From: Alphaproteobacteria bacterium | GTDB taxonomy: Bacteria; Pseudomonadota; Alphaproteobacteria; JAQWUY01 | NCBI GenBank assembly: GCA_029250225.1 | Contig: JAQWUY010000005.1 | Span: forward strand, 1 to 43,511 | DNA: 43,511 nt | Direction: 5' to 3' | Shown: positions 435-34,202 of the stretch, piece after piece | Layout: every line of letters begins with the position of its first letter | Numbering within the stretch: position 1 is the stretch's first letter | Position numbers and translations under genes: made by a program | Notes under the pieces: model-generated | Told to the model about the DNA's origin: nothing | The model's database searches: none | What the model saw: the letters and a program-made list of their open reading frames with translations, nothing else

Positions 435-1769
435 TTATTTACCTATACAGAAGTCTTTAAATACGACATCAAGTAATTCTTCCACATCGACTGTTCCGGT
501 TATAATGCCTAGGTGACGAAGGGCAATTCTTAAATCCTCGGTCACTAGTTCAGGAACGGGTGCGGTTTGTGATTGTATTAATGAATCTAAACAATCTTGT
601 AAGGCTCTGCGGTGACGGTTGCGGGTTATGATTGGTTCTGAATCGGTTGCAACTAGTCCAGAAATCAGGTCGTATAATTGATTTACAAGTTTATCAATTC
701 CATCACCCGTGTATATTGACATAGGAATTATGCTTTTACTTGTCTGTGGTGTATTAAAGCCGGAATTTTCATTTTTATTGGCTAAAATTACCAATGGAGC
801 ATTGTCATTTTCAATACTTTTAGTATTTTGTAAAATTAGCTCATCATTTATTTTATTTTTCACTCCGTCGATAACTAATATTATCACATCGGCTTGATTT
901 GCTGATTTTACCGCTCGTTTAATCCCCTCGGATTCAACAACATCATCTGATTCACGAATGCCGGCGGTATCGAACAAACGAACAGGGTATCCTTTTATAT
1001 CTAGGTTTACTTCTATGACATCGCGGGTTGTTCCGGCTTGCTCTGATACTATTGCAACATCGCGTTTTGTTAGTGCATTAATTAGTGATGATTTCCCCGC
1101 ATTGGGCGAACCAATAATTGCCACTTGAATACCGTTTCTAATTCGTTCACCGCGGTTATTATCTTCTAGGTGATTTAATATGCTAGAAATTAAGTTTTGA
1201 ATTTTTTCGTCTGTTTGTTTTTTAACACTTTCGGGTAAATCTTCGTCTGGAAAATCAATATAAGCTTCGCAGTGGGCAAGCAAGGGCAACAATTCATCAG
1301 CCCAAGAATTATATAAATCTCTTAAAGCGCCTTGGGTTTGGCGTTGTGCTTGTCGCATTTGTGCTTTTGTTTCTGCATTGATTAAATCAATTAACCCTTC
1401 TGCTTGGGTTAGATCCATTTTATTATTCGCGAATGCTCGCTTAGAAAATTCGCCTGGTTCAGCTAGCCTTGCCCCTTGTTTATCAAGTTCATCGAATAAA
1501 ACATTTAGGATTGCCTGTGAGCCGTGAATATGCAATTCAACAACATCTTCACCTGTAAAGCTGTTTGGGTTTTTAAAGGCAACCGCCATAGCCTCGTCAA
1601 TTAAATCACCGTTATTGGCAAACAGGTTTGTTCGTGCTAATTTATTCGGAGTAAAATTTTTCACTCCAAGTTGTTTAGCAAAATCAAATGCATTGTCGCC
1701 TGATATTCTTACAACTCCGACCCCACTACGGCCAACACCGCTGGCAAGAGCATATATTGTTTTACTCAT
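435..1769 (-). CDS. mnmE: tRNA modification GTPase MnmE
   Basis: With MnmG, MnmE installs the (carboxymethyl)aminomethyl group on wobble uridine 34 of certain tRNAs. The 444-aa length is normal. The N-terminal formyl-THF-binding domain starts MSKTIYALASGVGRSGVGVV. The G domain sits in the middle, with P-loop GSPNAGKSS (about residue 222), switch TTRDVIE and DTAGIR. The extreme C-terminus is FCIGK, the family signature with the conserved cysteine. The usual G4 motif NKxD reads NKNE, a D-to-E change. The ATG overlaps the trxA stop by 8 bp (ATGAGTAA), indicating co-transcription and possibly coupled translation. mnmE is commonly close to the origin in alphaproteobacteria; mnmG is not in this window. 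Confidence 0.97.
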   Translation of the reverse strand: MSKTIYALASGVGRSGVGVVRISGDNAFDFAKQLGVKNFTPNKLARTNLFANNGDLIDEAMAVAFKNPNSFTGEDVVELHIHGSQAILNVLFDELDKQGARLAEPGEFSKRAFANNKMDLTQAEGLIDLINAETKAQMRQAQRQTQGALRDLYNSWADELLPLLAHCEAYIDFPDEDLPESVKKQTDEKIQNLISSILNHLEDNNRGERIRNGIQVAIIGSPNAGKSSLINALTKRDVAIVSEQAGTTRDVIEVNLDIKGYPVRLFDTAGIRESDDVVESEGIKRAVKSANQADVIILVIDGVKNKINDELILQNTKSIENDNAPLVILANKNENSGFNTPQTSKSIIPMSIYTGDGIDKLVNQLYDLISGLVATDSEPIITRNRHRRALQDCLDSLIQSQTAPVPELVTEDLRIALRHLGIITGTVDVEELLDVVFKDFCIGK

Positions 1770-2100
1770 TTAAACTTTCATCAACCCAATCAATTAATAC
1801 TTTTTTATTAGCAGAGCCTACATTATTTGCTATTACTTCGCCGTTGCTAAATAATAACAATGTCGGAATTCCTCTGATGTTAAACTTTCCGGCTAGTTCT
1901 TGATTCTTATCAACATTTACTTTTGCAATCTTGATATCTGGACGCGAAACGGCAACTTCTTCTAGGATAGGGGCAAGCATTTTACACGGCCCACACCAAG
2001 GCGCCCAAAAATCTAGCACTACAGGTTTATCAGATTTTATAACCTGTTGTTCAAAGTTATCTGAATCAATTTCAATTATGTTACTTTCATCGTTTGGCAT
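1762..2100 (-). CDS. trxA: Thioredoxin
   Basis: A 112-aa cytoplasmic thioredoxin that reduces disulfides using electrons from thioredoxin reductase. The active site WCGPCK lies at about residue 36 and is preceded by the usual FWAP context; the cis-proline motif GIPTLLLF is at about residue 78. The ATG at 2100 has an AAGGAA Shine-Dalgarno sequence about 6 nt upstream. It sits between addA and mnmE on the same strand, and its stop overlaps the mnmE start by 8 bp. Placement of trxA directly after addA is a familiar alphaproteobacterial arrangement. A short acidic N-terminal extension (about 10 residues) precedes the thioredoxin fold. Confidence 0.97.
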   Translation of the reverse strand: MPNDESNIIEIDSDNFEQQVIKSDKPVVLDFWAPWCGPCKMLAPILEEVAVSRPDIKIAKVNVDKNQELAGKFNIRGIPTLLLFSNGEVIANNVGSANKKVLIDWVDESLNE

Positions 2101-2142
2101 TTTAATTTCCTTGTCTATTAATTCTTGTATTATACATAATTT

Positions 2143-5100
2143 TTATTTTATTGCTATATCCATTAAATCAAGGCTGTATGTCCATAATAATTTAGTTTTT
2201 ACTTGCTTGTCTAAATATATCTGTTCAATTATTTGTTTATATATTTCTAGCTGTCTTATGTATACAAGTGGTACTTCATTTTGATTGCTCGGCGGGTTAA
2301 TATTTGATTTATAATCAACAATCCATATTTCATCATCAATAAAACAAAGTCTATCAATAAATCCGCTTACTAGGCGTTTTTCATCATCAATTTTTACAAC
2401 ACCTGAAACTGGTATTTCTGCTTTTGAATTTTCATCAAATAAATATGGGTATTCATTGATTACATCTAGTATCTTAGCAAGTATTTTATTTTTATCAACT
2501 GTATTTAATTTTATGTGCGGTAAATATAAATAATTTTTAATTGCTGATTCACGGTTTTTAGGTTCAATATCAGGTATGAATTCCAAACACCTGTGTATAA
2601 TTATACCTATTTGCAAACCGTCATAATCATCTTTTTTAATCAAGGGCGAAGGAATTGCCGGCGGTGAATATTGTATTGATTGTGACGGGTTAATTTTTGC
2701 GTATTTATCCGCTTCATTAGGGGCGTTTTCATCAATCCAAAAACCATAACTTATATCATTATCGTTTTCTTGTTTTTTATTATTAGCTTCATTGTTAGTA
2801 TTTACATTATGCTCATCAAAATTAGTATATATATATTCATAAGCCTCGTCGTCTTTGTTGGGTGAATATATATTTTTTATATCATTCCATATTTCACTAT
2901 TTGAGCTCGGAATAAATTTTCGCTTTTCTAATTTATCAAATTTATTTATGCCTGCGAATAATAAATCATACCATAATATTTCTTGGCTTTCTTTGCCTTT
3001 TTTACCAACTCCACCACATATAAGCACATCTTTTGCTCTGGTCATTGCCACATATAACAACCTTTTGCTTTCTTCAAACTCATCTGTTTTAAAATCTTTT
3101 TCACCATTAAATAAATAATCTTTAACTTCGTTTAATTTTTTAGAGTTTTTATCAATAAATAACATATTGTTTTTTTGACCCCACACAATACGATCTTTAT
3201 TATTATTTGCCTCATACATAGTGCTTGGTATGATTACAACCGGTGCTTCCAAGCCTTTTGAGGCGTGAATTGTCATAATGCGGACGCGGTTTTGTCGTGC
3301 GTCTTGTTCGCGTTTAATCTCGCGTTTTGATGAATCAAAATAATTTAAAAATCCTTGCACTGTTGGCGGACTTTGCATTTCAAATTTTTGGATTTCTGTT
3401 AATAAATCATTAATAAAATCAATACATATTTTACCTAGTCTTGCTTGAAATGCCTGATGAGCATTTATGTTTTTACCGGTATCCATTACACTAGATATCG
3501 GGCAATAATTATTTAATACATAATTGATTAATTCAAGAGGGCGGATATAATCAATCTTGTTTAAAATATCATTTAAATAATTTATCGTCGTAGCGTGCTG
3601 TGGGAAACCTCGCAAAGATTGCCACAATGATTTTTTACCCCTTGTATTTGCAATATTAAATAATTTTTCATCATCAAAACCAAAAATTGGACTCTTTAAC
3701 AAGCAAGCAAGGTTTAAATCATCATTAGGAAACACACCAAACCTTAACAAAGATAATAAATCCTGTACAACTATTTGCTCGTTCAATATAACCCTATCTG
3801 CACCATCCACAGGAATGTTGCGGTTTTTTAATTCGCGAATTAAAGCATTAGTAAAATCATCTCGTTTGCGAACTAATACTATTATATCGCCCGCCCTAGC
3901 GAAATCACCTGTGCTAGGTAAATATTGCGATCCGATAATTGATATTATTTCTTCGGCAATTAACTTTGCATAACAAGGTCTAGCTTTTATACTTGATCCT
4001 TTTATAATTTTTAAGGCTGGTAATAATTTAACCATACCCAATTCATTTTCACGATTTGAAAAATGATTTATTTCATCATCTGAAACACCGTCATTATTAG
4101 CAATAAATGTATTATCAACCCATTGTAATACCGGCAGAGATGTACGGAATGACAAATCAAATTTTTCATTAGCAAAATCAACGCTAGCATTTTTTGTAAT
4201 ATTTTCTATGTCATTTCTAGTATTAATAAATCCATCGCGATATGCCCCTTGGAATGAATAAATAGATTGTTTTTCGTCGCCAACAACAAACAATGAATTA
4301 TCCCCCGCATTATTTGTTCCATCAAAAAATGGAGTAATAATACGCCTTATTATTTCCCATTGTGATGGTGCCGTGTCTTGGGCTTCGTCTAGTAAAAGGT
4401 GTTTGTGTCCATAATCGGTTTTAAACAATATCCAATTTGCAATGCTTTCTTTTTCAAGCAAAGATTTAGTTTTGATAATTATATCATTAAAATCTAGGAC
4501 ATTATGTCGCTGTTTTATATCATTATATTTTTTAATAAAATAATCAGATAAATCATATATATTATTTGTATTAGACAATAATGTTTTTAAAACAAGATGC
4601 TTGTTATATTTGTTATAAACCTCAAAAATAAGGGAAAAATTTTCTTGGTTGTCTTTAAAAAACTTTGTATTCTTATTGACATTTAAACAACTTTTTAAAG
4701 TTTCCGGATCTTTTGTTTTTTGATATAAATCTATGCCTTCCTTAAATTGAATAATAGCTTTATTTTCTTTGTATTCATTGCATATATTTGTAAGCTCAAT
4801 AATAATATTTTGTATAAAACTAGAATTTAATTCTGCGACAAGCCAATTTTCATCACATTTTGATTCCTCTATACTATTAAACCAATTTTGTAATTTTGTT
4901 TTTTGTTCTTCGCAATTTATTTCACTAAAATTAACTACATTTATTGAATTAGATAACAATTTAAACAAATCTTCTACACTACCGCTAGCCTGTATAGAAT
5001 AACTTCTAATTAATTTTAAAACATCTTGGTTTTTTATTAATTCTTTTTTTGTTTTTTGTATATATAGTGTTTGATCTTCCAACACACTAAAACCTTGTGA

Positions 5101-5529
5101 GACCCCAGATTCTAATGGGAATTTAGCTAGTAAAGATTGGCAAAAACTATGGATAGTTTGTACCTTTAATCCGCCCTTACTATCAAGAACTCGCGCGAAT
5201 AAAGACCTTGCTCGGTTAATTTGTTTTTGAGTTGGTTTTTCACCAATTATACTTGTTAATATATTTTGTAATTCTGCTTCTTCGCATACCGCCCATTTAT
5301 TTAAATCACTAATAATGCGGTTTGACATTTCATTAGCGCCGGCCTTTGTGTAAGTAATGGCGGTAATATTTTGCGGACTAACATCGCTTCGTAATAACAA
5401 GCGTAATATTCGTTGTACCAATACATAAGTTTTTCCAGATCCAGCTGATGCACTAACCCAAGAATGAGTATATGGGTTTGATACTCTTTTTTGTTTTTCG
5501 GTAGTAATAATTAAAGGGGTTTTATTCAT
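2143..5529 (-). CDS. addA: Double-strand break repair helicase-nuclease subunit AddA
   Basis: AddA is the UvrD-like helicase and 3'-strand nuclease of the AddAB (RecBCD-equivalent) complex that resects DNA ends for RecA. Visible motifs in order are Walker A SASAGSGKT near the N-terminus, LLLDEAQDT (Walker B), GDEKQSIYSFQGA, TIHASKGLEAPVVII, LLYVAMTRAKD and a C-terminal RecB-type nuclease core SGFIDRL...WIVDYKSN. Upstream in-frame ATGs exist up to 5547, but the ATG at 5529 follows a GGGGGA Shine-Dalgarno by about 8 nt and overlaps the addB stop by 8 bp, the same junction type as trxA/mnmE. I therefore start it there (about 1128 aa, slightly short for alphaproteobacterial AddA). It is in the same minus-strand run as addB and trxA. 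Confidence 0.95.
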   Translation of the reverse strand: MNKTPLIITTEKQKRVSNPYTHSWVSASAGSGKTYVLVQRILRLLLRSDVSPQNITAITYTKAGANEMSNRIISDLNKWAVCEEAELQNILTSIIGEKPTQKQINRARSLFARVLDSKGGLKVQTIHSFCQSLLAKFPLESGVSQGFSVLEDQTLYIQKTKKELIKNQDVLKLIRSYSIQASGSVEDLFKLLSNSINVVNFSEINCEEQKTKLQNWFNSIEESKCDENWLVAELNSSFIQNIIIELTNICNEYKENKAIIQFKEGIDLYQKTKDPETLKSCLNVNKNTKFFKDNQENFSLIFEVYNKYNKHLVLKTLLSNTNNIYDLSDYFIKKYNDIKQRHNVLDFNDIIIKTKSLLEKESIANWILFKTDYGHKHLLLDEAQDTAPSQWEIIRRIITPFFDGTNNAGDNSLFVVGDEKQSIYSFQGAYRDGFINTRNDIENITKNASVDFANEKFDLSFRTSLPVLQWVDNTFIANNDGVSDDEINHFSNRENELGMVKLLPALKIIKGSSIKARPCYAKLIAEEIISIIGSQYLPSTGDFARAGDIIVLVRKRDDFTNALIRELKNRNIPVDGADRVILNEQIVVQDLLSLLRFGVFPNDDLNLACLLKSPIFGFDDEKLFNIANTRGKKSLWQSLRGFPQHATTINYLNDILNKIDYIRPLELINYVLNNYCPISSVMDTGKNINAHQAFQARLGKICIDFINDLLTEIQKFEMQSPPTVQGFLNYFDSSKREIKREQDARQNRVRIMTIHASKGLEAPVVIIPSTMYEANNNKDRIVWGQKNNMLFIDKNSKKLNEVKDYLFNGEKDFKTDEFEESKRLLYVAMTRAKDVLICGGVGKKGKESQEILWYDLLFAGINKFDKLEKRKFIPSSNSEIWNDIKNIYSPNKDDEAYEYIYTNFDEHNVNTNNEANNKKQENDNDISYGFWIDENAPNEADKYAKINPSQSIQYSPPAIPSPLIKKDDYDGLQIGIIIHRCLEFIPDIEPKNRESAIKNYLYLPHIKLNTVDKNKILAKILDVINEYPYLFDENSKAEIPVSGVVKIDDEKRLVSGFIDRLCFIDDEIWIVDYKSNINPPSNQNEVPLVYIRQLEIYKQIIEQIYLDKQVKTKLLWTYSLDLMDIAIK

Positions 5530-8449
5530 TGTCATATCCCCCATCACTTGATTTTAAACCCCATTCGTTTTGGCGGAATAAATGTTCATAATCATTATAA
5601 CTTGAATTGGCTTTTTCATAATAATAAGGGGTATTAATATCCGAATATAAATCAACTTGTTCACATAATTTTTCATAAGATATTTCAGGAATTTCTTTAT
5701 TTTTACCATCAACATTTGTTGTTAATTTAAAGTCTTTTTTAATTTCCCAATAATTTAAATCAGATATATTTTTATTTTTATTTTTAAGGGCATATGCCGT
5801 TAAGCCTAATTGAGGTTCTTGTCCGCTTCTAACATTTGTTTTGTTAGGTAGGCTTCCTGTTTTATAGTCAATAATTCGCAATGAGCCATCTTGTAAAATA
5901 TCTATGCGGTCTGCTCGACCATAAAAGTTAAAATTATTATTTTGTTGGGTTGTTAAATCGAATGATATTTTTTCCTCGACAATATAACTATCGGTGACTT
6001 CATTATCCTTTTTAATGGCTTGTGATAAATTAGGCAAAGCATTTAAAAATCTTGGTAACCAAACAGATTGCGCCTCAACAATATTGGTATATTTATCATA
6101 TTCTGCAATTGCTATTTCTGTTAAATTATTTTTAATATCTGCGCTACTTAATTCATTTAATTTTTTATGTGTGCCGTATTGCTTATAAAAAACTTCAAGT
6201 ATTTTATGAACAATATTACCGTTTATATTTGCTTGTCCCTGAACATCTAGGCCACCAACAGGAAATAGCTTTAAAATATATCTAGCATATATTTGATACG
6301 GGTCATTATACCATTTCGTAATATTTGTAACACTCAAAGACTTAGGTCGTGATTCTAGGGGTGGGGTGGGTTTAGGCTCGGATATTACAAGATTTTTTTC
6401 ATTATAAAAATCTATGTTATTTGCGATATTAACATAATAATCTTGTAATATTTTTATGTTACAGGCTTTTGCAACGGCTTCAAATCTTAGCCACCATCTA
6501 GATGGGATTGTTTGGCTGTTTGATTCAATATTTGCCTTAGTAAATTTTATTGTTTTAGCATTACAACAACTTATTAAATCGTGAGCCGTTAAACCTACGC
6601 TGTTATCAAAGCTTGGCAATCCCATTTTCTCAACTATTGTGCTTGATAAAAACGGGCTGGATATTATTTTGGCTGGCATAGTATTTTCCAACATACCGCC
6701 TATTATGACATTATCAACTTGTTGCAAGCGACCTTCCATCAAACCCCATATATAAAGCCTTGGGTGAAAACCAAGTGTGGAGCGGACACTTTCACCCACA
6801 ATTAAATTAGTAAAAGCGCTAGCATAATCGTTAATATCATTAGGCTCATATTGATTGCAATTTTCATAAATATCACCAATTATTTTATTGAGTGCATTAC
6901 CATCATCGCCCGCCCATAATTTATCGGCTGATGATAAGTTTTCACAAGCATTAATATGGCTTTCTATTATTGTTTTAAAATCATTATTAGACTTGTTTTT
7001 TAACGGACTAATTTTTTGTTTAAAGCTATCAATAAATTCTATTAATTCTTCGGCCTTTTGTTTATCTAGCTCTTTATTAAATTCATTATCAATTTGTTCA
7101 TAAATAAAATCGTTCATATTTTCCAAGGAAATATTGCCAACAATTTGCCTAAGAACTAGTTTTTCAAATAATCTACTTTTTTGTAAAAAATCACCGCGAT
7201 TATCGCCACTATAACAAAATGGATGTTTGAATAAATCAACCAATGATACAGCCGAGAAATCCTCGCTTATTAAATTAGCAACCAATCGCATAAACACCGC
7301 TGGCGGTGTTTGGTGTAACGGCATACCTGAACTATCATCTATGCTAATATTCCAACGCTTCAAATTACTTGCAACTAATCGGGCAAGATTTCTATCATCG
7401 GTAATAAAGGCCGTCGTCTCATCTTCTTTTTCAAGTGAGTGTCGCATCATAAGAGCAATTACCATCGCCTCATTAAATGAATCTTCGGCCTCAATAAATT
7501 TTATATTATTAAATCCATCTTTACTTGGGGGATTGTTTTTCCACTGCTTAGTATCTTTCGCAGGCAAGAATGCCTGAGTAAACAATTCTTGTCTTTTTGG
7601 GTTTTCAGAACAAAAATCTTGGATATTCATATTACAGCTATCAACAAATTTTTGTATGTTGTGTAATGGGTGGGTTTGGTCTTTTAATACATTTTGTTGT
7701 TGCTCTTGGGTTAAATTCCCATCATAAGCATTTATTATTACAACTCCATTATCATAATCAGCAACAGATTGCATAAACCTTTGCAATGCTGGATAAAAAG
7801 GGTTTAATCCTGCTAGTATAACTTTTTTATTTTGCTTATAAATATATTCACTTAACATGCTTAATGTTGATGCTTTATAAGAGCCTATATTTTGCAAGCC
7901 TTGTTGTTTTAGTGTATTATCCCAATCAGGCTTTATATATTGTATAAAAGTTTTATTTATTTCCCAGTGTGCTGATAAATCAAGCTGTTTTATTAGCTCA
8001 TCAATACAATCTAGGTCTGTTTCATATAAATCAATATCATCAAATAATTTTGCGACAATGTCTGCACTTTTTAATGCCATCGACATTGTTATATTTTGTG
8101 GTTGCGGTAATTTTGCATAAAAATTTCTAATCATACCGGCAAGCCAAAACCTGCGATATGTTTTATTAACAGGCTCATTTTTTATTGCCCCGAAATTAAA
8201 TGACATATAATCAGATTCATAAGAATCGCCACCCAAAACTTTTATTTGAGGCATTATTATTGGCTTGTAATTGTTTGATTCTACTATCTTGTCTTGCAAT
8301 GATTTTACCAACCTAGAACTAGGTAAATAAACAATTGTATTATTGGCAACATCAGGGTTGTTTAACAACGATAAATCATCGCCGTAAACAACCTTAATTA
8401 AGTTAGATAAAAAATCATTTCCAACAGGGCAGTTATAAATCTTGCCCAT
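5522..8449 (-). CDS. addB: Double-strand break repair subunit AddB
   Basis: AddB partners AddA in processing DNA ends. The 975-aa protein has the alphaproteobacterial form: N-terminal VYLPSSRLVKSLQD in the inactivated helicase-like region, and a C-terminal nuclease domain with the Asp and Asp-x-Lys signature in YGRADRIDI followed by RIIDYKTG. I do not see the four-cysteine iron-sulfur cluster arrangement that frames the nuclease domain of the Bacillus protein. The start ATG directly abuts the stop of the MurU-like gene with no intergenic base, and the 3' end overlaps addA, consistent with one transcript and stoichiometric synthesis. Confidence 0.93.
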   Translation of the reverse strand: MGKIYNCPVGNDFLSNLIKVVYGDDLSLLNNPDVANNTIVYLPSSRLVKSLQDKIVESNNYKPIIMPQIKVLGGDSYESDYMSFNFGAIKNEPVNKTYRRFWLAGMIRNFYAKLPQPQNITMSMALKSADIVAKLFDDIDLYETDLDCIDELIKQLDLSAHWEINKTFIQYIKPDWDNTLKQQGLQNIGSYKASTLSMLSEYIYKQNKKVILAGLNPFYPALQRFMQSVADYDNGVVIINAYDGNLTQEQQQNVLKDQTHPLHNIQKFVDSCNMNIQDFCSENPKRQELFTQAFLPAKDTKQWKNNPPSKDGFNNIKFIEAEDSFNEAMVIALMMRHSLEKEDETTAFITDDRNLARLVASNLKRWNISIDDSSGMPLHQTPPAVFMRLVANLISEDFSAVSLVDLFKHPFCYSGDNRGDFLQKSRLFEKLVLRQIVGNISLENMNDFIYEQIDNEFNKELDKQKAEELIEFIDSFKQKISPLKNKSNNDFKTIIESHINACENLSSADKLWAGDDGNALNKIIGDIYENCNQYEPNDINDYASAFTNLIVGESVRSTLGFHPRLYIWGLMEGRLQQVDNVIIGGMLENTMPAKIISSPFLSSTIVEKMGLPSFDNSVGLTAHDLISCCNAKTIKFTKANIESNSQTIPSRWWLRFEAVAKACNIKILQDYYVNIANNIDFYNEKNLVISEPKPTPPLESRPKSLSVTNITKWYNDPYQIYARYILKLFPVGGLDVQGQANINGNIVHKILEVFYKQYGTHKKLNELSSADIKNNLTEIAIAEYDKYTNIVEAQSVWLPRFLNALPNLSQAIKKDNEVTDSYIVEEKISFDLTTQQNNNFNFYGRADRIDILQDGSLRIIDYKTGSLPNKTNVRSGQEPQLGLTAYALKNKNKNISDLNYWEIKKDFKLTTNVDGKNKEIPEISYEKLCEQVDLYSDINTPYYYEKANSSYNDYEHLFRQNEWGLKSSDGGYDNE

Positions 8450-9133
8450 TTATAATTTCCCTTTTTTATTAATAGCATCTACATCTTGGGGAGTTGAAAT
8501 ATGATACCATTTTCCTGTGTGGACTAATGCCTTTAAGCGGTTTTTTTGTTCTAATTTATCGTATATCAATCTTAATGAAAAAGCCCCATCAGGAGTATCA
8601 TCAAAACAAGATTTTCTTAGTATTTGTACACCGCAAAATACATACTTGCCATTTGGGTTGAAAATTACATTCCCATTTTCCCCAATATCTAAATCGCCCG
8701 TTCCTGTGTAATTATTTGCTTTTTCTTTTTCAATTACCAACAACAGGCCATCAATACTATCATCAAAATCTTGTATCATTTCATTAATAAAATTATTCTT
8801 ATCAGGTATAACAATAGAATCCGTATTAGCAACAACAAACACATCGCCTAAGTAATCAAGAATATTTTTAACCCCGCCACCTGTTTCTAGCACCTTGCCT
8901 TCAACAATCAAAGTTGCATCAAGATCTTTAAAATAATCAACCATTTTATCAGACAAATAATGCGCATTAACAAATATATTTTTAATTTTAGAATCTGCAA
9001 CAGTATCAAAAATATATTTTATTTGTGGTTGCCCACAAACTTCAATTAATGGCTTTGGCACAGTTTTTGAAAGAGGCATCATTCTTGTTCCAAATCCCGC
9101 ACCTAATAATATAGCATTATTTATTTTTTTCAT
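8450..9133 (-). CDS. murU: MurU-like sugar-1-phosphate nucleotidyltransferase
   Basis: A 227-aa nucleotidyltransferase of the NTP_transferase fold. The N-terminal signature LGAGFGTRMMPLSKTVPKPL carries the nucleotide and Mg-binding residues, and ETGGGVKNIL (about residue 83) is the sugar-phosphate-binding segment. In alphaproteobacteria the gene at this position between tsaE and addB is typically MurU, which makes UDP-MurNAc from MurNAc-1-phosphate in cell-wall recycling. Its partner kinase AmgK usually lies between tsaE and murU, but here the ATG overlaps the tsaE stop (ATGA) and no kinase gene is present. Without AmgK the substrate is less certain; a mannose-1-phosphate or glucose-1-phosphate specificity cannot be excluded. 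Confidence 0.8.
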   Translation of the reverse strand: MKKINNAILLGAGFGTRMMPLSKTVPKPLIEVCGQPQIKYIFDTVADSKIKNIFVNAHYLSDKMVDYFKDLDATLIVEGKVLETGGGVKNILDYLGDVFVVANTDSIVIPDKNNFINEMIQDFDDSIDGLLLVIEKEKANNYTGTGDLDIGENGNVIFNPNGKYVFCGVQILRKSCFDDTPDGAFSLRLIYDKLEQKNRLKALVHTGKWYHISTPQDVDAINKKGKL

Positions 9134-9609
9134 TTTTTCTCATCACCGTTTATTAACTTATCTAATTTTTTTTGTTTAAACTTATCGCCTAAAAAAACTA
9201 TATTGCGAGAATTCAAACAATCCCCATTTTCTATATTAATGTTCATTATTTCGCGAGGTAAAAACCCTTGTCCTTTTTCTGCCCATTCAATTAAACACAG
9301 GCTATTAGAAAAAGCTTCCTCTACACCCAGTTCTATTATTTGTGTTGGTTCTTCTAGGCGATATAAATCCATATGCCATATGTCAAATTTTTTCGCCTCA
9401 TATGTTTGTACAAGCGTAAATGTGGGACTTGGAACATTAGTTTCATCACCTAAAAACGATTGAATTATAAATCTAGCAATAGTTGATTTTCCCGCCCCTA
9501 AATCTCCGTTTAATGCGACAACATCGCCGGCAACAAAAATCTTTGCTAGGTTGGTGGCAAGTTGTTTCATTTGACTTAAATTAATATTTTTTAATTCGTA
9601 TTTATACAT
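9130..9609 (-). CDS. tsaE: tRNA threonylcarbamoyladenosine biosynthesis ATPase TsaE
   Basis: TsaE is the small ATPase needed by the TsaB-TsaD-TsaC system that forms t6A37 on ANN-decoding tRNAs. The 159-aa sequence has Walker A NGDLGAGKST (about residue 35), SPTFTLVQ and the WHMDLYRL segment, then LCLIEWAEKG, all family hallmarks. tsaD is in this window on the opposite strand (13558-14601). The stop overlaps the start of the nucleotidyltransferase by 4 bp, and hemY lies 26 bp upstream, so it seems to belong to the long hemC-to-mnmE minus-strand transcription unit. Confidence 0.95.
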   Translation of the reverse strand: MYKYELKNINLSQMKQLATNLAKIFVAGDVVALNGDLGAGKSTIARFIIQSFLGDETNVPSPTFTLVQTYEAKKFDIWHMDLYRLEEPTQIIELGVEEAFSNSLCLIEWAEKGQGFLPREIMNINIENGDCLNSRNIVFLGDKFKQKKLDKLINGDEKK

Positions 9610-25201: not shown

Positions 25202-26056
25202 ATGAGCTGGCTAACAGACTTAAAACCAAAATTATCAAAATTACTTGGTGGTGATGATAATGTTCCTGAAAATGTTTGGTTGAAATGTCCAGACACTGGA
25301 ATGATAATTCATAAACGAGAGCTAGAAAATAATATGTATGTTTCTCCGCACTCTGACCATCATTTTGCAATGCCAGTACAAAACAGATTACAAAGTATTT
25401 ACGATGACGGTAATTATGAACTTATTTCATCACCAGCAACAAGAGATGATCCACTTAAATTTAAAGATTCTAAAAAATATACAGAACGATTAAAAATATC
25501 TAGAAAAAAAACTGGGTGCGAAGATGCTATTATCCTTGCCTATGGTATGGTTGGCGGTAACCCGCTAGTTGTTGCTCTGTTTAATTTTGCCTTTATGGGC
25601 GGTTCGATGGGTTCCGCTGTGGGCGAGGGAATTGTTAAAGCCGGCGAATTTGCAATTGAAAAAAAAGCAGGCTTTATGATTATTCCTGCTAGTGGCGGTG
25701 CAAGAATGCAAGAAGGCATTATTTCATTAATGCAAATGGCACGAACAACCGTTATAATTAATCGCATTAAAAAAGCTAAGCTACCGTATATTGTTTTATT
25801 AACAAACCCAACAACGGGCGGAGTGTCGGCATCTTTTGCTATGATAGGTGATATTCATATTGCTGAACCAAAATGTATTATCGGCTTTGCAGGTCGTCGT
25901 GTAATTGAACAAACAGTTCGCGAAACATTGCCTGCTGATTTTCAAACCGCAGAATATCTAGAAAATCACGGTATGGTTGATATGGTTGTGCATCGCCATA
26001 AACTAAAAGATGAGATTGCTAAAATCCTCGATTTATTAATGATTAAGAAAAAGTAA
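25202..26056 (+). CDS. accD: Acetyl-CoA carboxylase carboxyltransferase beta subunit
   Basis: AccD with AccA transfers the carboxyl group from biotin to acetyl-CoA, committing carbon to fatty-acid synthesis. The 284-aa protein has the carboxyltransferase motifs MGGSMGSAVGEGI, PASGGARMQEGI and NPTTGGVSASFAMIGD. The N-terminal zinc ribbon of the E. coli protein has four cysteines, but here only one remains (LKCPDTGM), and the second knuckle reads YVSPHSDHHF. Loss of these cysteines is common in alphaproteobacterial AccD and does not imply a pseudogene. folC follows on the same strand 10 bp later, the usual pairing. Confidence 0.96.
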   Translation: MSWLTDLKPKLSKLLGGDDNVPENVWLKCPDTGMIIHKRELENNMYVSPHSDHHFAMPVQNRLQSIYDDGNYELISSPATRDDPLKFKDSKKYTERLKISRKKTGCEDAIILAYGMVGGNPLVVALFNFAFMGGSMGSAVGEGIVKAGEFAIEKKAGFMIIPASGGARMQEGIISLMQMARTTVIINRIKKAKLPYIVLLTNPTTGGVSASFAMIGDIHIAEPKCIIGFAGRRVIEQTVRETLPADFQTAEYLENHGMVDMVVHRHKLKDEIAKILDLLMIKKK

Positions 26057-26066
26057 AGTCTAGCCC

Positions 26067-27371
26067 TTGCGAAGTGAAAAAATTTCTCGCACTAATCCTA
26101 AAATAGCCGATATTTTATCTAGGTTGCAAAAGCTACACCCACAAAATATTGATTTAGGTTTAAATCGCACCTTTAAATTATTGGAAAAACTTGGCAACCC
26201 GCAAAATAATTTACCGCCAGTAATTCATATTGCAGGCACAAATGGCAAAGGCTCAACACTATCTTTTATTCAGGCCATATTGGAATCAGCAGGCTTGACA
26301 GTTCACAGATACACCTCGCCTGAACTCGTAAAATTTAACGAAAGATATATTATATCAGGCAAAGAAATATCTGATGATAATTTATTAAAATATTTGGAAT
26401 TAGCAGAGCAAGTAAATAACGGCGATGCCATTACATTTTTTGAAATTACCACCGCCATTTGTTTTAAAATGTTTGCCGACAATAAGGCCGATGTTGTTTT
26501 ACTAGAAACCGGTATGGGGGGCAGGCTTGATTCAACAAATGTTGTCCCAAATACAGCCGTAAATATCATTAGTAATATTAGCCTAGATCACCAAGACTTT
26601 TTAGGCGATAACCTCGAAAAAATAGCAACTGAAAAATCAGGGATAATTCGCCCACAAGCAAGCGTTGTGATTTCTCCACAAAATGATATTAATGTTGATG
26701 CAACAATAATCTCCGTAGCTAATGCAGTGGGTGGAAACATCAACGCACATAAATTAAATTGGGAATATGAATTACTTGATGATGGGTTTGTTTTACACAC
26801 TAAAAAGGGGTCTTATAAATTACCTACCCCAAACTTGGTTGGCTTGCATCAATACGATAATGCAAGCAGTGCTGTTGTTGCTTGTCAGGAATTATCAAGA
26901 GTTGGCATAAAAATTGATTCAGTGCATTTTGAGACTGGATTAAAAAATGCAATTCACCGCGCTAGATTTGAAAAAATCAATATACCTAATGTTGGCAAGG
27001 ATATATATTTAGACGGAGGACACAATCCATCGGCGGGCTTAAAAATTGCTGAAAACCTAAAAGCATTAGGCGGGGTAAAAGTAAGCTTAATTTGTGGAAT
27101 GTTATCAGGTAAGGATGTGGATAATTTTATTAAACCACTAAAACCATATATTTTAAATGTATACACTGTTACTATAAAAGATAATCCATTTTCTAGCACC
27201 CCAGCAATTAAGGCCGATGAATTATCACAACACATATCAAACTTAGGTTTAAAATCAAACCCTTGTGAAACATTGCAACAAGCCTTAGTTAATGCAGATA
27301 ATGACGATGCAAATATTATACTGTGTGCGGGTTCATTGCACCTAGCCGGCAACACCCTAGATTTACTTTAA
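26067..27371 (+). CDS. folC: Folylpolyglutamate synthase / dihydrofolate synthase
   Basis: FolC adds glutamate to dihydropteroate and to reduced folates. The 434-aa Mur-ligase-fold protein has the P-loop HIAGTNGKGSTLSF (about residue 53), YTSPELVKFNERY, ETGMGGRLDSTN, SLDHQDFLG, and C-terminal DGGHNPSAGLKIAENL. Starts are limited: an in-frame TAG at 26061 and no in-frame ATG before the first conserved segment leave TTG at 26067 as the best candidate, with poor Shine-Dalgarno support. The gene sits 10 bp after accD and its stop is 7 bp from that of the convergent RloC-like gene. Confidence 0.94.
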   Translation: MRSEKISRTNPKIADILSRLQKLHPQNIDLGLNRTFKLLEKLGNPQNNLPPVIHIAGTNGKGSTLSFIQAILESAGLTVHRYTSPELVKFNERYIISGKEISDDNLLKYLELAEQVNNGDAITFFEITTAICFKMFADNKADVVLLETGMGGRLDSTNVVPNTAVNIISNISLDHQDFLGDNLEKIATEKSGIIRPQASVVISPQNDINVDATIISVANAVGGNINAHKLNWEYELLDDGFVLHTKKGSYKLPTPNLVGLHQYDNASSAVVACQELSRVGIKIDSVHFETGLKNAIHRARFEKINIPNVGKDIYLDGGHNPSAGLKIAENLKALGGVKVSLICGMLSGKDVDNFIKPLKPYILNVYTVTIKDNPFSSTPAIKADELSQHISNLGLKSNPCETLQQALVNADNDDANIILCAGSLHLAGNTLDLL

Positions 27372-27378
27372 AATAATA

Positions 27379-29787
27379 TTAATTTTTATAAGTCTTTAAT
27401 TTTGTAAAATCGACACTATGTTTTTCTTCAAAAAATTTTATTACTTCTTTGCAAATTTCTTCTAAATCGTCTTGTTTATTTAATGATGCTTCATCAGTAA
27501 ATTTACCATGACTTAATGAATTTGCGACTTGTTTTAATTTCACCCCATTATTTATAGACTGAATAAAATCGCCTAAATTTTCTTCTCTGCACTGTATGTC
27601 TTGTGCAATTTCTAAAACACAGCGAATTGAATTGCCTATAGTATGTACATTTTCATTATTTTCATCATTTTTTGGTTTTATAAAACTACAAATATCTTTT
27701 AGGTGTAATTTTAACATTGATTCTTTGCTAAAATTAGATTGATTAAGTTCTAAACCATCATTTTCTCTCTTTAATTCAAAATAACCCCCGCCGTCTTTAA
27801 ATATATTCTGCCGAATAAATGTATAAAATGTTGTGTCATGTGTTAATATTAAAGAATCTCTTTTGTTGTTTTTCCAGCTATCATTTTCATTATAAAATCC
27901 CTTTCCTATCTTATCATAACGGTATTTACTTAAATATTGCTTATAGTATTCAATAGAACTTGTTAAATTATAAAAATTATGGTAATCAACGCTAGAAACA
28001 GGGTCGTCCATTACAAAAATTATATTTCGTGCTTGTTGTACATTCTTCACTTTTTCAAGTGATGAAATCCAATAATATGCTAAGCTAATAATATTTTTCT
28101 CACCTGTACTTAAAATATTTTTATGGTTATTATCAATTTCTGTTTCACTAAGAACAAGCTTTCCGCTATCATTTATTTTAAATTTTTTACAACCTAATTG
28201 CGTTAAAAGATTATTAAAAATATCTTTACAGGCCATTAAAAAATTAACTTGTTCTTGATGTTTGACACTTAGTTTTTTTATTTCAGCGTCTAAATCTTGT
28301 TTAATTTTTTTTAAATCTTTAATTGTTTTATAAGTGCCATTGTTCTTGTGCTCGTTTATTTTTTCGCAAAGTTTAGAAGAAAGCCATTTTTTATTTAAAT
28401 TTGCTTTGTTATTATTCTTTTTCCCTGCTTCTGTCTTCAAACATTCTACATATTCATTATATTTATTTATTATATCTTTATTAAAGCCGTTAATTGATTC
28501 TGTTAAATGCTCTATTTTTATTTTTAACGGTGAAGTGGCTATTTTTATGTCCATTTGTTTATCTAATTTTTCTTTAATAAGACCCTTTTTATCACCCTCA
28601 TTTCCAACAATATCTGTTTGGTATTGCTCTATTCTTTTTATATGGTCTTCTAAGCTTGGCTCCATTACAAGTGGGTACTCAATAGTTAACAACTCTCTTT
28701 GGTCTTTTGTATCACCTATGTTTTTTGTAATTTTCTTCATTATGTCTTGGGGCTTTATCTTCTTTATTTCACTCTCTATATATTCAAGGCGCTCTTGTGC
28801 TTTTGCTCTATCGGAATCAATGAAGCCTTTTAGTCTTTTGATAGTTTTTTTTCTTAGTTCAACATCAATATTTTGTTCACATAATGGACATTTATGATGA
28901 TTTTCATTATCTATTTCATCCTTAGATTTTTCACACCAAGCACTACCTAGGTTTTCTAAAACAGTATCAATTTGTGGATAATTATTCTCTATTAATTTAC
29001 ATAATTCATCAGGTAAAAAGTTTATTTGTATTGCATTCTGTTTTTCAATTTCAATAGAATCAACTGATATTTCATCTAATTCTTCTAATTTTTTTTGTAT
29101 ATCTGAGGGGTTTCCTGCCTCCAAACCATCTATATTACCATCATATATTTGGCTTTTAATATTATTCCAATATTTTTTTGGGTCTCCTTTTGACTGGTTG
29201 TAGATTGTTACTAAGTCTTTTGTGAATCCTTTTTCCTCATCATCTTCATCAGATTTTGTTTTTCCTAAAATATTATTTAATTTTTTCTCGGTACTAGCAA
29301 GTTCAATTTCTTTATTTTCTAATTCCGTATCATCTTTAGTAATATTTGCTTCTACCATATTTTTGAATGCTCCGCTTTTTGAAAAGCTAGGGCTTAATGT
29401 ATTTAAAAAGTCATCACAGTATACATGTAATTTAGGGCTTTTTTGATATTTTGAAGAATCAGATATATCTATTATTTTTTCGTTATTAAATTCAATTTCT
29501 ATTATCAGCGATTGAGAAATAAATTCAATTTCAATTTTTGAATTCCCCCAATTTTTTATTGGCCTAAGTTTTTTAAATAATTCATTATAATCTTGATAAG
29601 CTTGATTTTTAAATTCTTCTTTATTATCAGTTTGAGATAGCTCTTGAAGCTTAGAAATTAAATATAAACAAGAAGAAATAGTAGATTTCCCAGTTCCGTT
29701 TTTTGCAAAAATTAAATTTTCTGTTTTATTGAATTTTGCTTCAAGCGATTTAATGCCCTTAATATTTGTTATTTTTACTTTTTTCAT
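27379..29787 (-). CDS. RloC-like Rad50-type ATPase, probable anticodon nuclease
   Basis: An 802-aa AAA_13/Rad50-like protein. Visible features in order: Walker A AKNGTGKS (residues 28-35), long coiled coils with a zinc-hook CPLC at about residue 300, the ABC signature LSTGEKNIISLAYYW at about 560, Walker B NIIFVMDDPVSSVD at about 590 and H-loop SLILTHD at about 647. The C-terminal part has IRCVLE (Arg-x3-Glu) and, 34 residues after the Glu, the His of NSLSHGKF. This matches the Arg-x3-Glu...His triad reported for the anticodon nucleases PrrC and RloC. RloC combines that nuclease with a zinc-hook Rad50-like ATPase and acts in phage defence by cutting tRNA. No hsd restriction genes are adjacent. 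ATG at 29787 with ACAGG upstream is preferred over TTG at 29802. Its last codons lie within one copy of a 16-nt direct repeat. Catalytic activity is inferred, not shown. Confidence 0.7.
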   Translation of the reverse strand: MKKVKITNIKGIKSLEAKFNKTENLIFAKNGTGKSTISSCLYLISKLQELSQTDNKEEFKNQAYQDYNELFKKLRPIKNWGNSKIEIEFISQSLIIEIEFNNEKIIDISDSSKYQKSPKLHVYCDDFLNTLSPSFSKSGAFKNMVEANITKDDTELENKEIELASTEKKLNNILGKTKSDEDDEEKGFTKDLVTIYNQSKGDPKKYWNNIKSQIYDGNIDGLEAGNPSDIQKKLEELDEISVDSIEIEKQNAIQINFLPDELCKLIENNYPQIDTVLENLGSAWCEKSKDEIDNENHHKCPLCEQNIDVELRKKTIKRLKGFIDSDRAKAQERLEYIESEIKKIKPQDIMKKITKNIGDTKDQRELLTIEYPLVMEPSLEDHIKRIEQYQTDIVGNEGDKKGLIKEKLDKQMDIKIATSPLKIKIEHLTESINGFNKDIINKYNEYVECLKTEAGKKNNNKANLNKKWLSSKLCEKINEHKNNGTYKTIKDLKKIKQDLDAEIKKLSVKHQEQVNFLMACKDIFNNLLTQLGCKKFKINDSGKLVLSETEIDNNHKNILSTGEKNIISLAYYWISSLEKVKNVQQARNIIFVMDDPVSSVDYHNFYNLTSSIEYYKQYLSKYRYDKIGKGFYNENDSWKNNKRDSLILTHDTTFYTFIRQNIFKDGGGYFELKRENDGLELNQSNFSKESMLKLHLKDICSFIKPKNDENNENVHTIGNSIRCVLEIAQDIQCREENLGDFIQSINNGVKLKQVANSLSHGKFTDEASLNKQDDLEEICKEVIKFFEEKHSVDFTKLKTYKN
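27384..27399. repeat. 16-nt direct repeat, copy 1 (3' end of RloC-like gene)
   Basis: The sequence TTTTATAAGTCTTTAA occurs here and identically at 29857-29872. This copy encodes, in the minus-strand frame, residues near the C-terminus of the RloC-like protein and lies 13 bp from the folC stop. Its twin covers the stop of the carbonic anhydrase gene. The two copies bracket almost exactly the RloC-like gene, as attachment sites or a duplicated target would. Confidence 0.6.
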
Positions 29788-29836
29788 AATTAACCTGTTC
29801 AATTAAAAATAGTTTTTTTGTTGATATAAATGAATT

Positions 29837-29859
29837 AAAGGTAATAGAGGTTTACCTTT
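29837..29859 (-). terminator. Hairpin just after carbonic anhydrase stop
   Basis: AAAGGTAA and TTACCTTT form an 8-bp perfect stem with a 7-nt loop directly after the carbonic anhydrase stop codon. There is no U-run immediately after it on the minus strand, so it is at best a weak intrinsic terminator or an mRNA 3'-end stabiliser separating this gene from the RloC-like gene. Confidence 0.35.
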
Positions 29860-29872
29860 TATAAGTCTTTAA
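29857..29872. repeat. 16-nt direct repeat, copy 2 (3' end of carbonic anhydrase)
   Basis: Identical to 27384-27399 (TTTTATAAGTCTTTAA). This copy spans the last codons and stop of the carbonic anhydrase gene, read in a different frame from copy 1. Insertions that duplicate the 3' end of a gene typically leave it intact, as here. Confidence 0.6.
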
Positions 29873-30506
29873 CAACTTTGCTGATTTCAAGTTTTTCGGC
29901 ATCTTTGTTATTTGCGATTACACAATCGAGGTCTTTTAACAGGCCGTCTTTAATGTCGTATATCCAGCCGTGAATAATAAGGTCTTGTCCGTTTGCCCAA
30001 GCTTCTTGCACCATTGTTGTTTCAGTTAAATTACGAACTTGTGTTTGTACATTTAGCTCACATAATTTTCGTTCTTGTTCTTCACCAGACAAACCGCTTA
30101 ATGATTTGTCATTTTCGCGGATTACTTGACGAATATTATGTACCCAACTATCTACTGTGCCGAAACTATCACTAGATAGTGATGCTTTTACTGCACCGCA
30201 ACCGTAATGTCCTGTTACTATAATATGTTTAACTTTTAAAACTTCAACCGCGTAGCCAATTACCGCACGAATATTGCTGTCTGAATGTGAAATTACATTT
30301 CCTACATTGCGATGTACAAATACCTCGCCTGGTTCAACACCAATTATTGTGTTTGCAGGAACTCGTGCATCGGAACAGCCAATCCATAAATATTGAGGGG
30401 TGTGTTGTTCTAATAGCTTTTCAAAAAAATCAGGATCAAATTTTAATCTGCTTGCAACCCATTTTTTATTATTTTCTAATAATTTATTAAGTTTTTTATC
30501 GCACAT
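29859..30506 (-). CDS. can: Beta-class carbonic anhydrase
   Basis: This 215-aa zinc enzyme interconverts CO2 and bicarbonate, supplying bicarbonate to carboxylases such as acetyl-CoA carboxylase (accD is in this window). Zinc ligands are visible as the Cys of IGCSDARVPANTI, and the His and Cys of VTGHYGCGAVKA; the Asp-Arg dyad of the C-S-D-x-R motif is present. PGEVFVHRNVGN and the C-terminal IHGWIYDIKDG segment are also typical of the bacterial can/cynT clade. The ATG has an AAGGG Shine-Dalgarno 7 nt upstream. Its 3' end overlaps a 16-nt direct repeat also found at the end of the adjacent RloC-like gene. Confidence 0.95.
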   Translation of the reverse strand: MCDKKLNKLLENNKKWVASRLKFDPDFFEKLLEQHTPQYLWIGCSDARVPANTIIGVEPGEVFVHRNVGNVISHSDSNIRAVIGYAVEVLKVKHIIVTGHYGCGAVKASLSSDSFGTVDSWVHNIRQVIRENDKSLSGLSGEEQERKLCELNVQTQVRNLTETTMVQEAWANGQDLIIHGWIYDIKDGLLKDLDCVIANNKDAEKLEISKVVKDL

Positions 30507-31780: not shown

Positions 31781-32145
31781 TGACACCATTCGGCAATAAA
31801 TTACGAATTTTACGCAATGAAAAAAACATTACACAAAAAGAACTGGCTCGTGCAATTGGAGTTAGCCCAGCTTATTTAAGTTCATTGGAGCGAGGCAATC
31901 GCGGTGTGCCAAGCGTTCAGATAGTAGAGGCTGTTTGTGCATACTTTAACATTATTTGGGAAGATGCCGATGAGGTTAGAAAGCTAGCTCTGCTCTCACA
32001 TCCAAAAACAATAATTAACACTAGTAATTTAAATAATCACAAAGCAACAGAGTTGACCAATTTATTGGCCAATAAAATAAATTATTTAAATAAAGAGCAA
32101 ATTGAAAAAATAATTAATATAATAGAAAATAAAGATTCTAATTAA
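31780..32145 (+). CDS. XRE-family HTH transcriptional regulator
   Basis: A 121-aa protein with an N-terminal Cro/C1-type HTH: FGNKLRILRNEKNITQKELA followed by the recognition helix region SPAYLSSLERGNRGVPS. The remainder is a helical extension (EDADEVRKLALLSHPKTI) that resembles short alphaproteobacterial regulators often found beside Smr-domain genes. Targets are unknown. Its ATG overlaps the smr stop by one base, and its stop overlaps that of the convergent flavoreductase gene by 4 bp. Confidence 0.88.
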   Translation: MTPFGNKLRILRNEKNITQKELARAIGVSPAYLSSLERGNRGVPSVQIVEAVCAYFNIIWEDADEVRKLALLSHPKTIINTSNLNNHKATELTNLLANKINYLNKEQIEKIINIIENKDSN

Positions 32146-34202
32146 TAGACATCTCTTACATATCGCTTTTGCTTTTTTAATTCGTTTATATAGTTGGTTG
32201 CTTTTTCAATAGACATTGCCCCGAACCTTGCAACAATTTCTAGTAAAGTTGCATCAACATCTTTTGCCATTTTTGATGCATCACCACATACAAAGAAATA
32301 CCCGCCTTTTTCAAGAGCGTTAAATAAATCGGCTCCTTCTTTCAGCATTAAATTTTGCACATATGTTTTTTGTTTATTGTTTTCGCGTGACCAAGCAAGA
32401 GATAAGCGAACCTTTCCTTGTTCTTGCCACTTTTCTAGTGTTTCTTGATACAAATAATCATTTTTTGTACGATCACCAAAGAATAACCAATTTTCACCGG
32501 TTGCATTGCACTCTATGCGTTCTTGTATAAAACCACGAAACGGGGCAATGCCTGTTCCTGGGCCAACCATTATCATAGGCGCGGTATTATCTTGTGGTAT
32601 AGAAAAAGATTTGTTTGGATGCATAAACAAGCCGACCTTGTCACCTTTTTTTAATCTATCGGCAAGGAAGCAAGAGGCAACCCCCTCACAATCTCTACCG
32701 TTAAATTTGTATTTTAATGTTGCAACAGTAAGGTGTACTTCACCAGAATGTGTTTTTGGACTTGATGAAATAGAATACAGGCGGTGTTGTAGCGGATTTA
32801 GTAATTCTAGAAATTCTTGTTCGCCAAATGAAACATTATAATCATTTAAAAAATCAACTATTTCACGACCCCAGATAAACTTATCCATTTCTTTTTTATT
32901 TTCGTGTAATAATTTTAATTTTGTATCGCTTGATTTTGTAGTTACCGCTGATATAAAATTTTTGTTTGGCAGGCGAATTTCTTTTTCATTTAATAAAATA
33001 TCACTAAACTTTTTACCATCTATTTCTTTCTCGCCATTGAATTTGCCAGCGGATAAAACATCATTAACCAAAGCTTCGCTATTTATCGGTATTACCCCTA
33101 TTGAATCGCCAGCCTCATATTGCATTTCACCATCTTTTGCTTCAAATTCAAAGTGAATAACTTGTTTGTCCGAACCTTTTTTTGATAATAATTCACTTTT
33201 TAAAAGCTCACCCATATAAGGATTGTTTTTAGTATATATAGATTTATATGTAATTTCTTGAGCTTTTTCTATCGTAGGTGCAGATGATTTTTTTTGTACA
33301 TAAGAAAATGTTGTTTTAATATTTTCAATCCAATCATTTGCCTGCTCTTCGTAATCTACATCAAGTTTTAAAGTTTCAATTTTTCTATTTGCTCCTAGAC
33401 TTGAAAAGAAATTATCCCAATCTTCGGCTGATTTACAAAAGAAATCATATGCCGTGTCACCTAATCCTAATATTGCATAGTCACAAGATAATTTATCCAT
33501 ATCTTGCACACTATTCCATAGTATTTGTCCGTTGTCTGGGTGTTCACCCTCACCATATGTCGATGTAATTATTATTACATTTTTAAATGATTTCAAATCT
33601 TCGCTAGATATGTCCGCCATATCATAGACGGTTCCTGATGTTGCACTAGCAAGATCGTGGGCAAGGTTTTCAGCGTTGCCGGTTTGTGAAGAAAATAAAA
33701 TGCTTAGGCCGGAATTATCGCTAGGCTTGCATTCTTGTTCTTTTTCTTCTTCTTGCCTAGAACTAAATTCTGATTTAACAATTTCAGCCCAATCATTTGC
33801 CTGCTCTTCGTAATCTACATCGAGTTTTAAAGTTTCAATTTTTCTATTTGCTCCTAGACTTGAAAAGAAATTATCCCAATCTTCGGCTGATTTACAAAAG
33901 AAATCATATATGGTGTCACCTAATCCCAATATTGCATAGTTACAAGATAATTTATCAATATCTTGCACACTATCCCATAATATTTGTCCGTTATCTGGGT
34001 GTTCGCCATCACCATATGTTGATGTAATTATTATTACATTTTTAAATGATTTTAAATCTTCGCTAGATACATCCGCCATATCTAGGACAGGGCTATTTAT
34101 TTTATGTGCTAAGTCGTGGGCAAGGTTTTCAGCGTTGCCGGTTTGCGAAGCAAATAAAATATATGTTTCTTTTTCGTCTTGCCTAGAATTATTGTTATTC
34201 AT
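32142..34202 (-). CDS. cysJ: CysJ-like diflavin reductase with duplicated flavodoxin domain
   Basis: This 686-aa NADPH-dependent diflavin reductase passes electrons through FAD and FMN, in CysJ to the sulfite reductase hemoprotein. It has two flavodoxin domains (about residues 12-150 and 166-303), nearly identical and each with intact FMN motifs SQTGNAENLAHDLA, STYG-GEHPDNG and LGLGDT-YDFFCKSAEDWD. They are followed by the FAD domain (RLYSISSSP and GVASCFLADRL) and the NADP domain (VGPGTGIAPFRGFIQER), ending RYVRDVY. Removal of one copy (153 residues) leaves about 533 aa, near the size of compact CysJ-type proteins. No cysI is adjacent, so the partner could be sulfite reductase or another acceptor. 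The start ATG at 34202 is preceded by a 274-bp gap shared with uppP. Confidence 0.85.
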   Translation of the reverse strand: MNNNNSRQDEKETYILFASQTGNAENLAHDLAHKINSPVLDMADVSSEDLKSFKNVIIITSTYGDGEHPDNGQILWDSVQDIDKLSCNYAILGLGDTIYDFFCKSAEDWDNFFSSLGANRKIETLKLDVDYEEQANDWAEIVKSEFSSRQEEEKEQECKPSDNSGLSILFSSQTGNAENLAHDLASATSGTVYDMADISSEDLKSFKNVIIITSTYGEGEHPDNGQILWNSVQDMDKLSCDYAILGLGDTAYDFFCKSAEDWDNFFSSLGANRKIETLKLDVDYEEQANDWIENIKTTFSYVQKKSSAPTIEKAQEITYKSIYTKNNPYMGELLKSELLSKKGSDKQVIHFEFEAKDGEMQYEAGDSIGVIPINSEALVNDVLSAGKFNGEKEIDGKKFSDILLNEKEIRLPNKNFISAVTTKSSDTKLKLLHENKKEMDKFIWGREIVDFLNDYNVSFGEQEFLELLNPLQHRLYSISSSPKTHSGEVHLTVATLKYKFNGRDCEGVASCFLADRLKKGDKVGLFMHPNKSFSIPQDNTAPMIMVGPGTGIAPFRGFIQERIECNATGENWLFFGDRTKNDYLYQETLEKWQEQGKVRLSLAWSRENNKQKTYVQNLMLKEGADLFNALEKGGYFFVCGDASKMAKDVDATLLEIVARFGAMSIEKATNYINELKKQKRYVRDVY
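33330..33701. repeat. Tandem flavodoxin-domain repeat, unit 2 in reading direction
   Basis: This block and 33789-34160 align without gaps at an offset of 459 bp (153 codons), differing at scattered, often third-codon positions. Between the two is a short more variable linker (about 33702-33788). The similarity at the DNA level points to a fairly recent intragenic duplication or to ongoing gene conversion. Confidence 0.9.
33789..34160. repeat. Tandem flavodoxin-domain repeat, unit 1 in reading direction
   Basis: Partner of 33330-33701 at an offset of exactly 459 bp. It encodes the N-terminal flavodoxin domain. The least conserved part is around 34080-34115, which encodes the helix after the first beta strand. 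Confidence 0.9.

Follow-up and report, generated by a model that had tools for sequence, protein, structure and literature searches.

The closest described relatives of the protein treated here are the anticodon nucleases RloC and PrrC, in both of which an ABC ATPase is combined with a HEPN nuclease, for RloC as described in PMC3710099. RloC (Davidov and Kaufmann 2008) has a split ABC ATPase with a zinc hook, ranges from 658 to 897 residues in length, and has as its hallmark the excision of the wobble nucleotide from tRNA, activated by DNA breaks and ATP. The catalytic triad of G. kaustophilus RloC, Arg692/Glu696/His737, was proven by mutation (PMC2610378), and activation by DNA breaks was shown for RloC in A. 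baylyi (PMC3874168). Because two RloC genes are reported in P. aeruginosa PA14 (PMC2610378), and PADLOC assigns two PDC-S06 to the same strain (PMC11878078), the PDC-S06 class corresponds at least in part to RloC. RloC genes are usually unlinked to restriction-modification genes. Ten of 73 were reported to lie in possible transposons, and the G. kaustophilus gene sits in an IS4-family transposon (PMC2610378).

With respect to genomic setting, two kinds of described locus are relevant. CIMEs are decayed integrative elements that retain their att sites (PMC5704250), whereas the hotspots of E. coli and P. aeruginosa harbour defence loci between core genes (PMC10121019, PMC10250203). Homologous recombination is the presumed route by which chromosomal defence islands not carried on mobile elements were acquired (PMC12829572). 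How lone defence genes that lack an integrase enter chromosomes is an open question.

The locus described here is part of a window of 43,511 nucleotides (69% AT), which constitutes one entire contig of an alphaproteobacterial genome of 1.20 Mb in 48 contigs. The genome is rated 100% complete, and is the sole representative of its order among the genomes compared. The fetched genome is partly N, with about 1.02 Mb of readable sequence, and the N stretches alter the chance rates given below very little. The features of the locus are the following:

26067-27371, plus strand: folC (folylpolyglutamate synthase; Pfam Mur_ligase_M and Mur_ligase_C), left neighbour, convergent with rloC
27379-29787, minus strand: rloC, predicted RloC-type ABC-ATPase/HEPN anticodon nuclease of 802 aa (PF13166, PADLOC PDC-S06, motif alignment)
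27384-27399, plus strand: repeat copy 1, TTTTATAAGTCTTTAA, which also codes LKTYK near the RloC C-terminus
27508-27510, minus strand: His760 (SLSHG), predicted third residue of the nuclease triad, corresponding to His737 in G. kaustophilus RloC
27610-27624, minus strand: Arg722-CVL-Glu726, predicted first and second triad residues, corresponding to Arg692/Glu696 in G. kaustophilus RloC
28879-28890, minus strand: CPLC zinc-hook motif, conserved as CPxC in full-length homologues
29788-29856, minus strand: rloC 5' leader of 69 bp, lying within the repeats, with an AGG ribosome-binding site before ATG 29787
29857-29872, plus strand: repeat copy 2, TTTTATAAGTCTTTAA, covering the final codons and stop of can
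29859-30506, minus strand: can (beta-carbonic anhydrase; PF00484, 181 bits), right neighbour

As for other members of the RloC family, the window protein is predicted to combine a split ABC ATPase, a zinc hook and the nuclease triad, and at 802 residues it falls within the known size range. It matches Pfam AAA_13 (PF13166) with 83 bits and PADLOC PDC-S06 over its full length with 126 bits; a sequence comparison with the PDB gave no meaningful match. The ATPase motifs identified by alignment are NGTGKST (Walker A), LSTGEK (ABC signature), VMDDP (Walker B/D-loop), and LTHD (switch histidine), and the LS-GEK, DDP, and LTH elements are invariant across the RloC alignment. In the long insert between Walker A and the signature, which is a putative coiled coil, CPLC aligns with CPFC or CPYC of the homologues. 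Arg722, Glu726, and His760 are invariant in the seven homologues aligned. The assignment as RloC-like that had been made from the open reading frame is thus borne out by PF13166, PDC-S06, the Walker motifs, CPLC, and the R-xxx-E...H pattern, so that by sequence the framed gene is classed as RloC-type, a known kind of anti-phage gene. The likeness to the family is recognised here from sequence, and the protein shares only 19-25% identity with the other members in the alignment; a defence function and anticodon nuclease activity would follow by analogy. PrrC has the ABC ATPase, HEPN nuclease and triad in common with the window protein, but the window gene has double the length of PrrC, encodes a zinc hook, and is not linked to a type I restriction system. 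As is usual for RloC, the gene is unlinked to restriction-modification genes and is surrounded by housekeeping genes, folC and can among them. The most likely start codon is ATG 29787, rather than TTG 29802 (which would give 807 residues), because of the AGG ribosome-binding site upstream. No promoter-like site above background was found in the 69-bp leader (29788-29856).

The gene is framed by TTTTATAAGTCTTTAA, which is present, as the earlier note had it, at 27384-27399 and 29857-29872 with zero mismatches. The match ends at exactly 16 bases. A longer, decayed repeat was ruled out, since local alignment of the 200-bp flanks with normal scoring gives no extension, and so was a dispersed genomic element, since exact matching across the entire genome gave these two copies and no third. 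Copy 2 does run across the can stop codon (29859-29861), and copy 1 does provide codons of the RloC-like C-terminus (..LKTYK..), the end sequence of rloC at this copy being TTAAAGACTTATAAAA. The placement of copy 1 adjacent to the end of folC also holds, the copy beginning 12 bp past the folC stop (27371). According to the alignment, copy 1 may simply encode the protein's own C-terminus, which would speak against a footprint: the homologues terminate at about the same distance past the catalytic histidine, while the repeat-coded tail itself, comprising the last few residues, is not conserved. The last approximately 20 codons of can are likewise not conserved. Both copies are therefore situated within the coding sequence of unconserved protein tails, and because of this the coding overlap of the repeat is neutral. 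The repeat is short, AT-rich, and not located at a tRNA.

By itself, the repeat is unremarkable. In Markov simulations, about 3 exact direct pairs of at least 16 bases arise per window by chance, and about 0.7 pairs of this length or longer with a spacing of 0.8-6 kb, and for this reason repeat length alone is uninformative, and a claim of significance based on it was rejected. Less ordinary is the way in which the copies bracket one gene at its two ends. When codons and intergenic composition are preserved in shuffles, one gene framed by a 16-mer is expected 0.12 times per 1.08 Mb. Unlinked gene boundaries in the same genome have a 16-mer in common in 2 per 10,000 cases (2.0e-4 per gene), corresponding to an expectation of 0.008 per 41-gene window and 0.19 for the 955 genes of the genome. 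Because the framing was singled out post hoc, these figures are suggestive and do not amount to proof.

Deletion of 27384-29856 would place the stops of folC and can about 15 bp apart in convergent orientation. The tight junction proposed earlier is thus recovered, and the spacing is normal for this genome, where convergent gene pairs are separated by a median of 12 bp. Both proteins are intact in the integrated form and would be so in the predicted excised circle, in which the rloC stop codon would directly follow the repeat. No case of folC beside can was found in the other class members compared, and the best FolC match elsewhere is about 44% identical. In other alphaproteobacteria, accD, folC, trxA, addA, and addB lie together. 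In the window, trxA-addA-addB (1762-9609) is found apart from accD-folC (25202-27371). Given this difference, gene order on the downstream side of folC was probably reshuffled in the lineage.

In composition and distribution, rloC stands out as the window's only defence gene of foreign appearance. Its GC content is 26.4%, compared with 35.7% for folC and 35.8% for can; among 445 long genes it ranks 31 in AT-richness, AT-rich genes not being rare in this genome. Recognisable relatives occur in 3 of 384 other class members, with 26-29% identity. Because of the low GC content relative to the approximately 36% of its neighbours, and the scarcity of relatives in the class, the gene looks horizontally acquired. 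Five distant relatives (27-29% identity) were found on alphaproteobacterial plasmids, and none in phage records or viral contigs. Framing repeats comparable to TTTTATAAGTCTTTAA were absent from the five RloC homologues examined.

Only rloC lies between the repeats, with no integration or transfer genes, in agreement with the proposal of a one-gene cargo without an integrase. At the level of the genome, Pfam searches of the approximately 1.02 Mb of readable sequence detected neither a tyrosine recombinase (PF00589) nor a serine recombinase (PF00239), and E. coli XerC and XerD as queries found no match in the readable genome, whereas the UvrD and RecJ controls did. The suggestion that the gene was inserted by site-specific or repeat-mediated recombination is accordingly upheld in part: the foreign character of the gene and the spacing of the junction fit an insertion, but current site-specific mobility is disfavoured because no recombinase of either type was detected. 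A recombinase helper may possibly have been lost after insertion.

We give an even chance to the reading of the 16-bp repeat as an insertion footprint of rloC, and lean slightly towards it over a chance match. The principal competing explanation, which we consider plausible at somewhat below an even chance, is that homologous or illegitimate recombination brought in rloC, for instance on transduced DNA with common flanks, and that the AT-rich gene ends match by coincidence. In its favour are the pairs of at least 16 bases expected in the window, with 0.7 at gene-like spacing, and the 0.12-0.19 chance-framed genes expected genome-wide. A coincidence is also compatible with the position of both copies in coding sequence for unconserved tails, with the failure to detect a recombinase, and with the route envisaged for chromosomal defence islands outside mobile elements (PMC12829572). 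What speaks against it is the low rate per gene (2.0e-4) taken together with the fact that, among the genes of the window, it is the single foreign one that has the match, and the presence in the same genome of other accessory genes with longer framing repeats that are beyond chance. The closest category for a coincidental match would be the defence loci between core genes that have no identifiable mobile element (PMC10121019, PMC12829572); as in the E. coli and P. aeruginosa hotspots, an accessory defence gene is here located between conserved genes with no evident way of moving.

Two further explanations deserve less weight. If rloC were an old resident around which the folC-can arrangement of this lineage was built, no insertion would ever have taken place. 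This would accord with a junction that is lineage-specific among the class members compared, but genes of the rloC type occur rarely and sporadically in the class, and the GC content of rloC is below that of its neighbours, which makes such an origin very unlikely. Even less probable is a target-site duplication produced by an rloC-bearing transposon or insertion sequence. The transposon-associated RloC genes mentioned above, that of G. kaustophilus included, provide a precedent, but there is no transposase in the insert and no terminal inverted repeats are found inside the 16-mers (the best match is 7 bases). Moreover, 16 bp exceeds the usual length of target duplications.

If the repeat is taken as an insertion footprint, rloC would have arrived by horizontal transfer as a single anti-phage gene and settled between folC and can, both of which are conserved. 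The crossover would have fallen at the 3' terminus of can, duplicating the 16 bp while keeping can intact. The resulting locus, in which a lone cargo gene is flanked by att-like sequences and accompanied by no recombinase, would resemble a decayed integrative element. CIMEs are the closest known category for a footprint of this kind. As in a CIME, direct repeats are found at both ends, the position is the 3' end of a gene, that gene is intact, and the cargo has no recombinase. Unlike a CIME, the locus has candidate att-like ends of only 16 bp, in a genome in which no integrase was detected. In analogy to characterised RloC, the protein would stay inactive as long as its ATPase detects no DNA breaks, and once activated it would cut tRNA anticodons, whereupon translation would stop. 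For this locus, we infer both the DNA-break trigger and the role of the repeat as a footprint.

The prior for an insertion of rloC is raised because the same genome, over its approximately 1.02 Mb of readable sequence, contains other repeat-framed inserts, with repeats of 41, 78, and 66 bp that cannot be due to chance. Contig C14 carries, at 44437-46419 (L154:4437-6419), a single GmrSD-type gene (PF03235; PADLOC HEC-05, 521 bits) enclosed by two exact 41-bp repeats, with the repeat-framed stretch at C14:44574-46419. The copies consist of the second half of the tRNA-Ser(TGA) terminator and downstream sequence, and no integrase is present. As a one-gene defence insert framed by repeats, this is a far stronger case than rloC. 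On contig C25 (L218:10782-14425), the gene for a TonB-dependent receptor is enclosed together with a membrane ORF, again with no integrase, by 78-bp repeats that are 91% identical and correspond to the terminator and 3' end of a tRNA-Leu. On contig C5 (L169:1-2460), a DUF4917/PDC-S21 gene and small ORFs are situated amid imperfect direct repeats of 66 bp, also without an integrase; a second repeat family is found inside this region, which looks like a small cassette array. Repeats at C14:97781 were rejected as cassette ends, since they are partial copies of the start of a T5orf172 gene.

It is conceivable, though in our estimate unlikely, that minimal repeat-framed cassettes, several of them for defence, are moved in this genome, which has no detected recombinases, by a mechanism or helper that has yet to be recognised. 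That the GmrSD gene at tRNA-Ser, the DUF4917/PDC-S21 gene in its 66-bp repeats, and rloC at a protein gene would together form such a set is a similarly speculative proposal. With lone defence genes framed by exact direct repeats, and with no recombinase detected, the genome would offer a clean place to study the entry of such genes, for which rloC alone is a weaker case than GmrSD at tRNA-Ser.

Two minor observations concern other parts of the genome. The window also codes for a CysJ-like flavoprotein (32142-34202) with two N-terminal flavodoxin domains, a pair that derives from a recent tandem duplication with a spacing of 459 bp and exact repeats of up to 87 bp. Elsewhere, several short contigs carry or overlap tRNA sequence (C29, C12, C7, C38, C17, C15, and C23, with loci L170, L207, L203, L221, L211, L209, and L216, respectively), and these tRNA-linked contigs hold restriction systems, namely hsdR with PrrC, hsdM/hsdS, a cytosine methylase, and a type III system. 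PrrC adjoins hsdR on C29. Because C12, C29, and C38 have tRNA-Met sequences in common, strain variation or tandem insertion at tRNA-Met is suggested.
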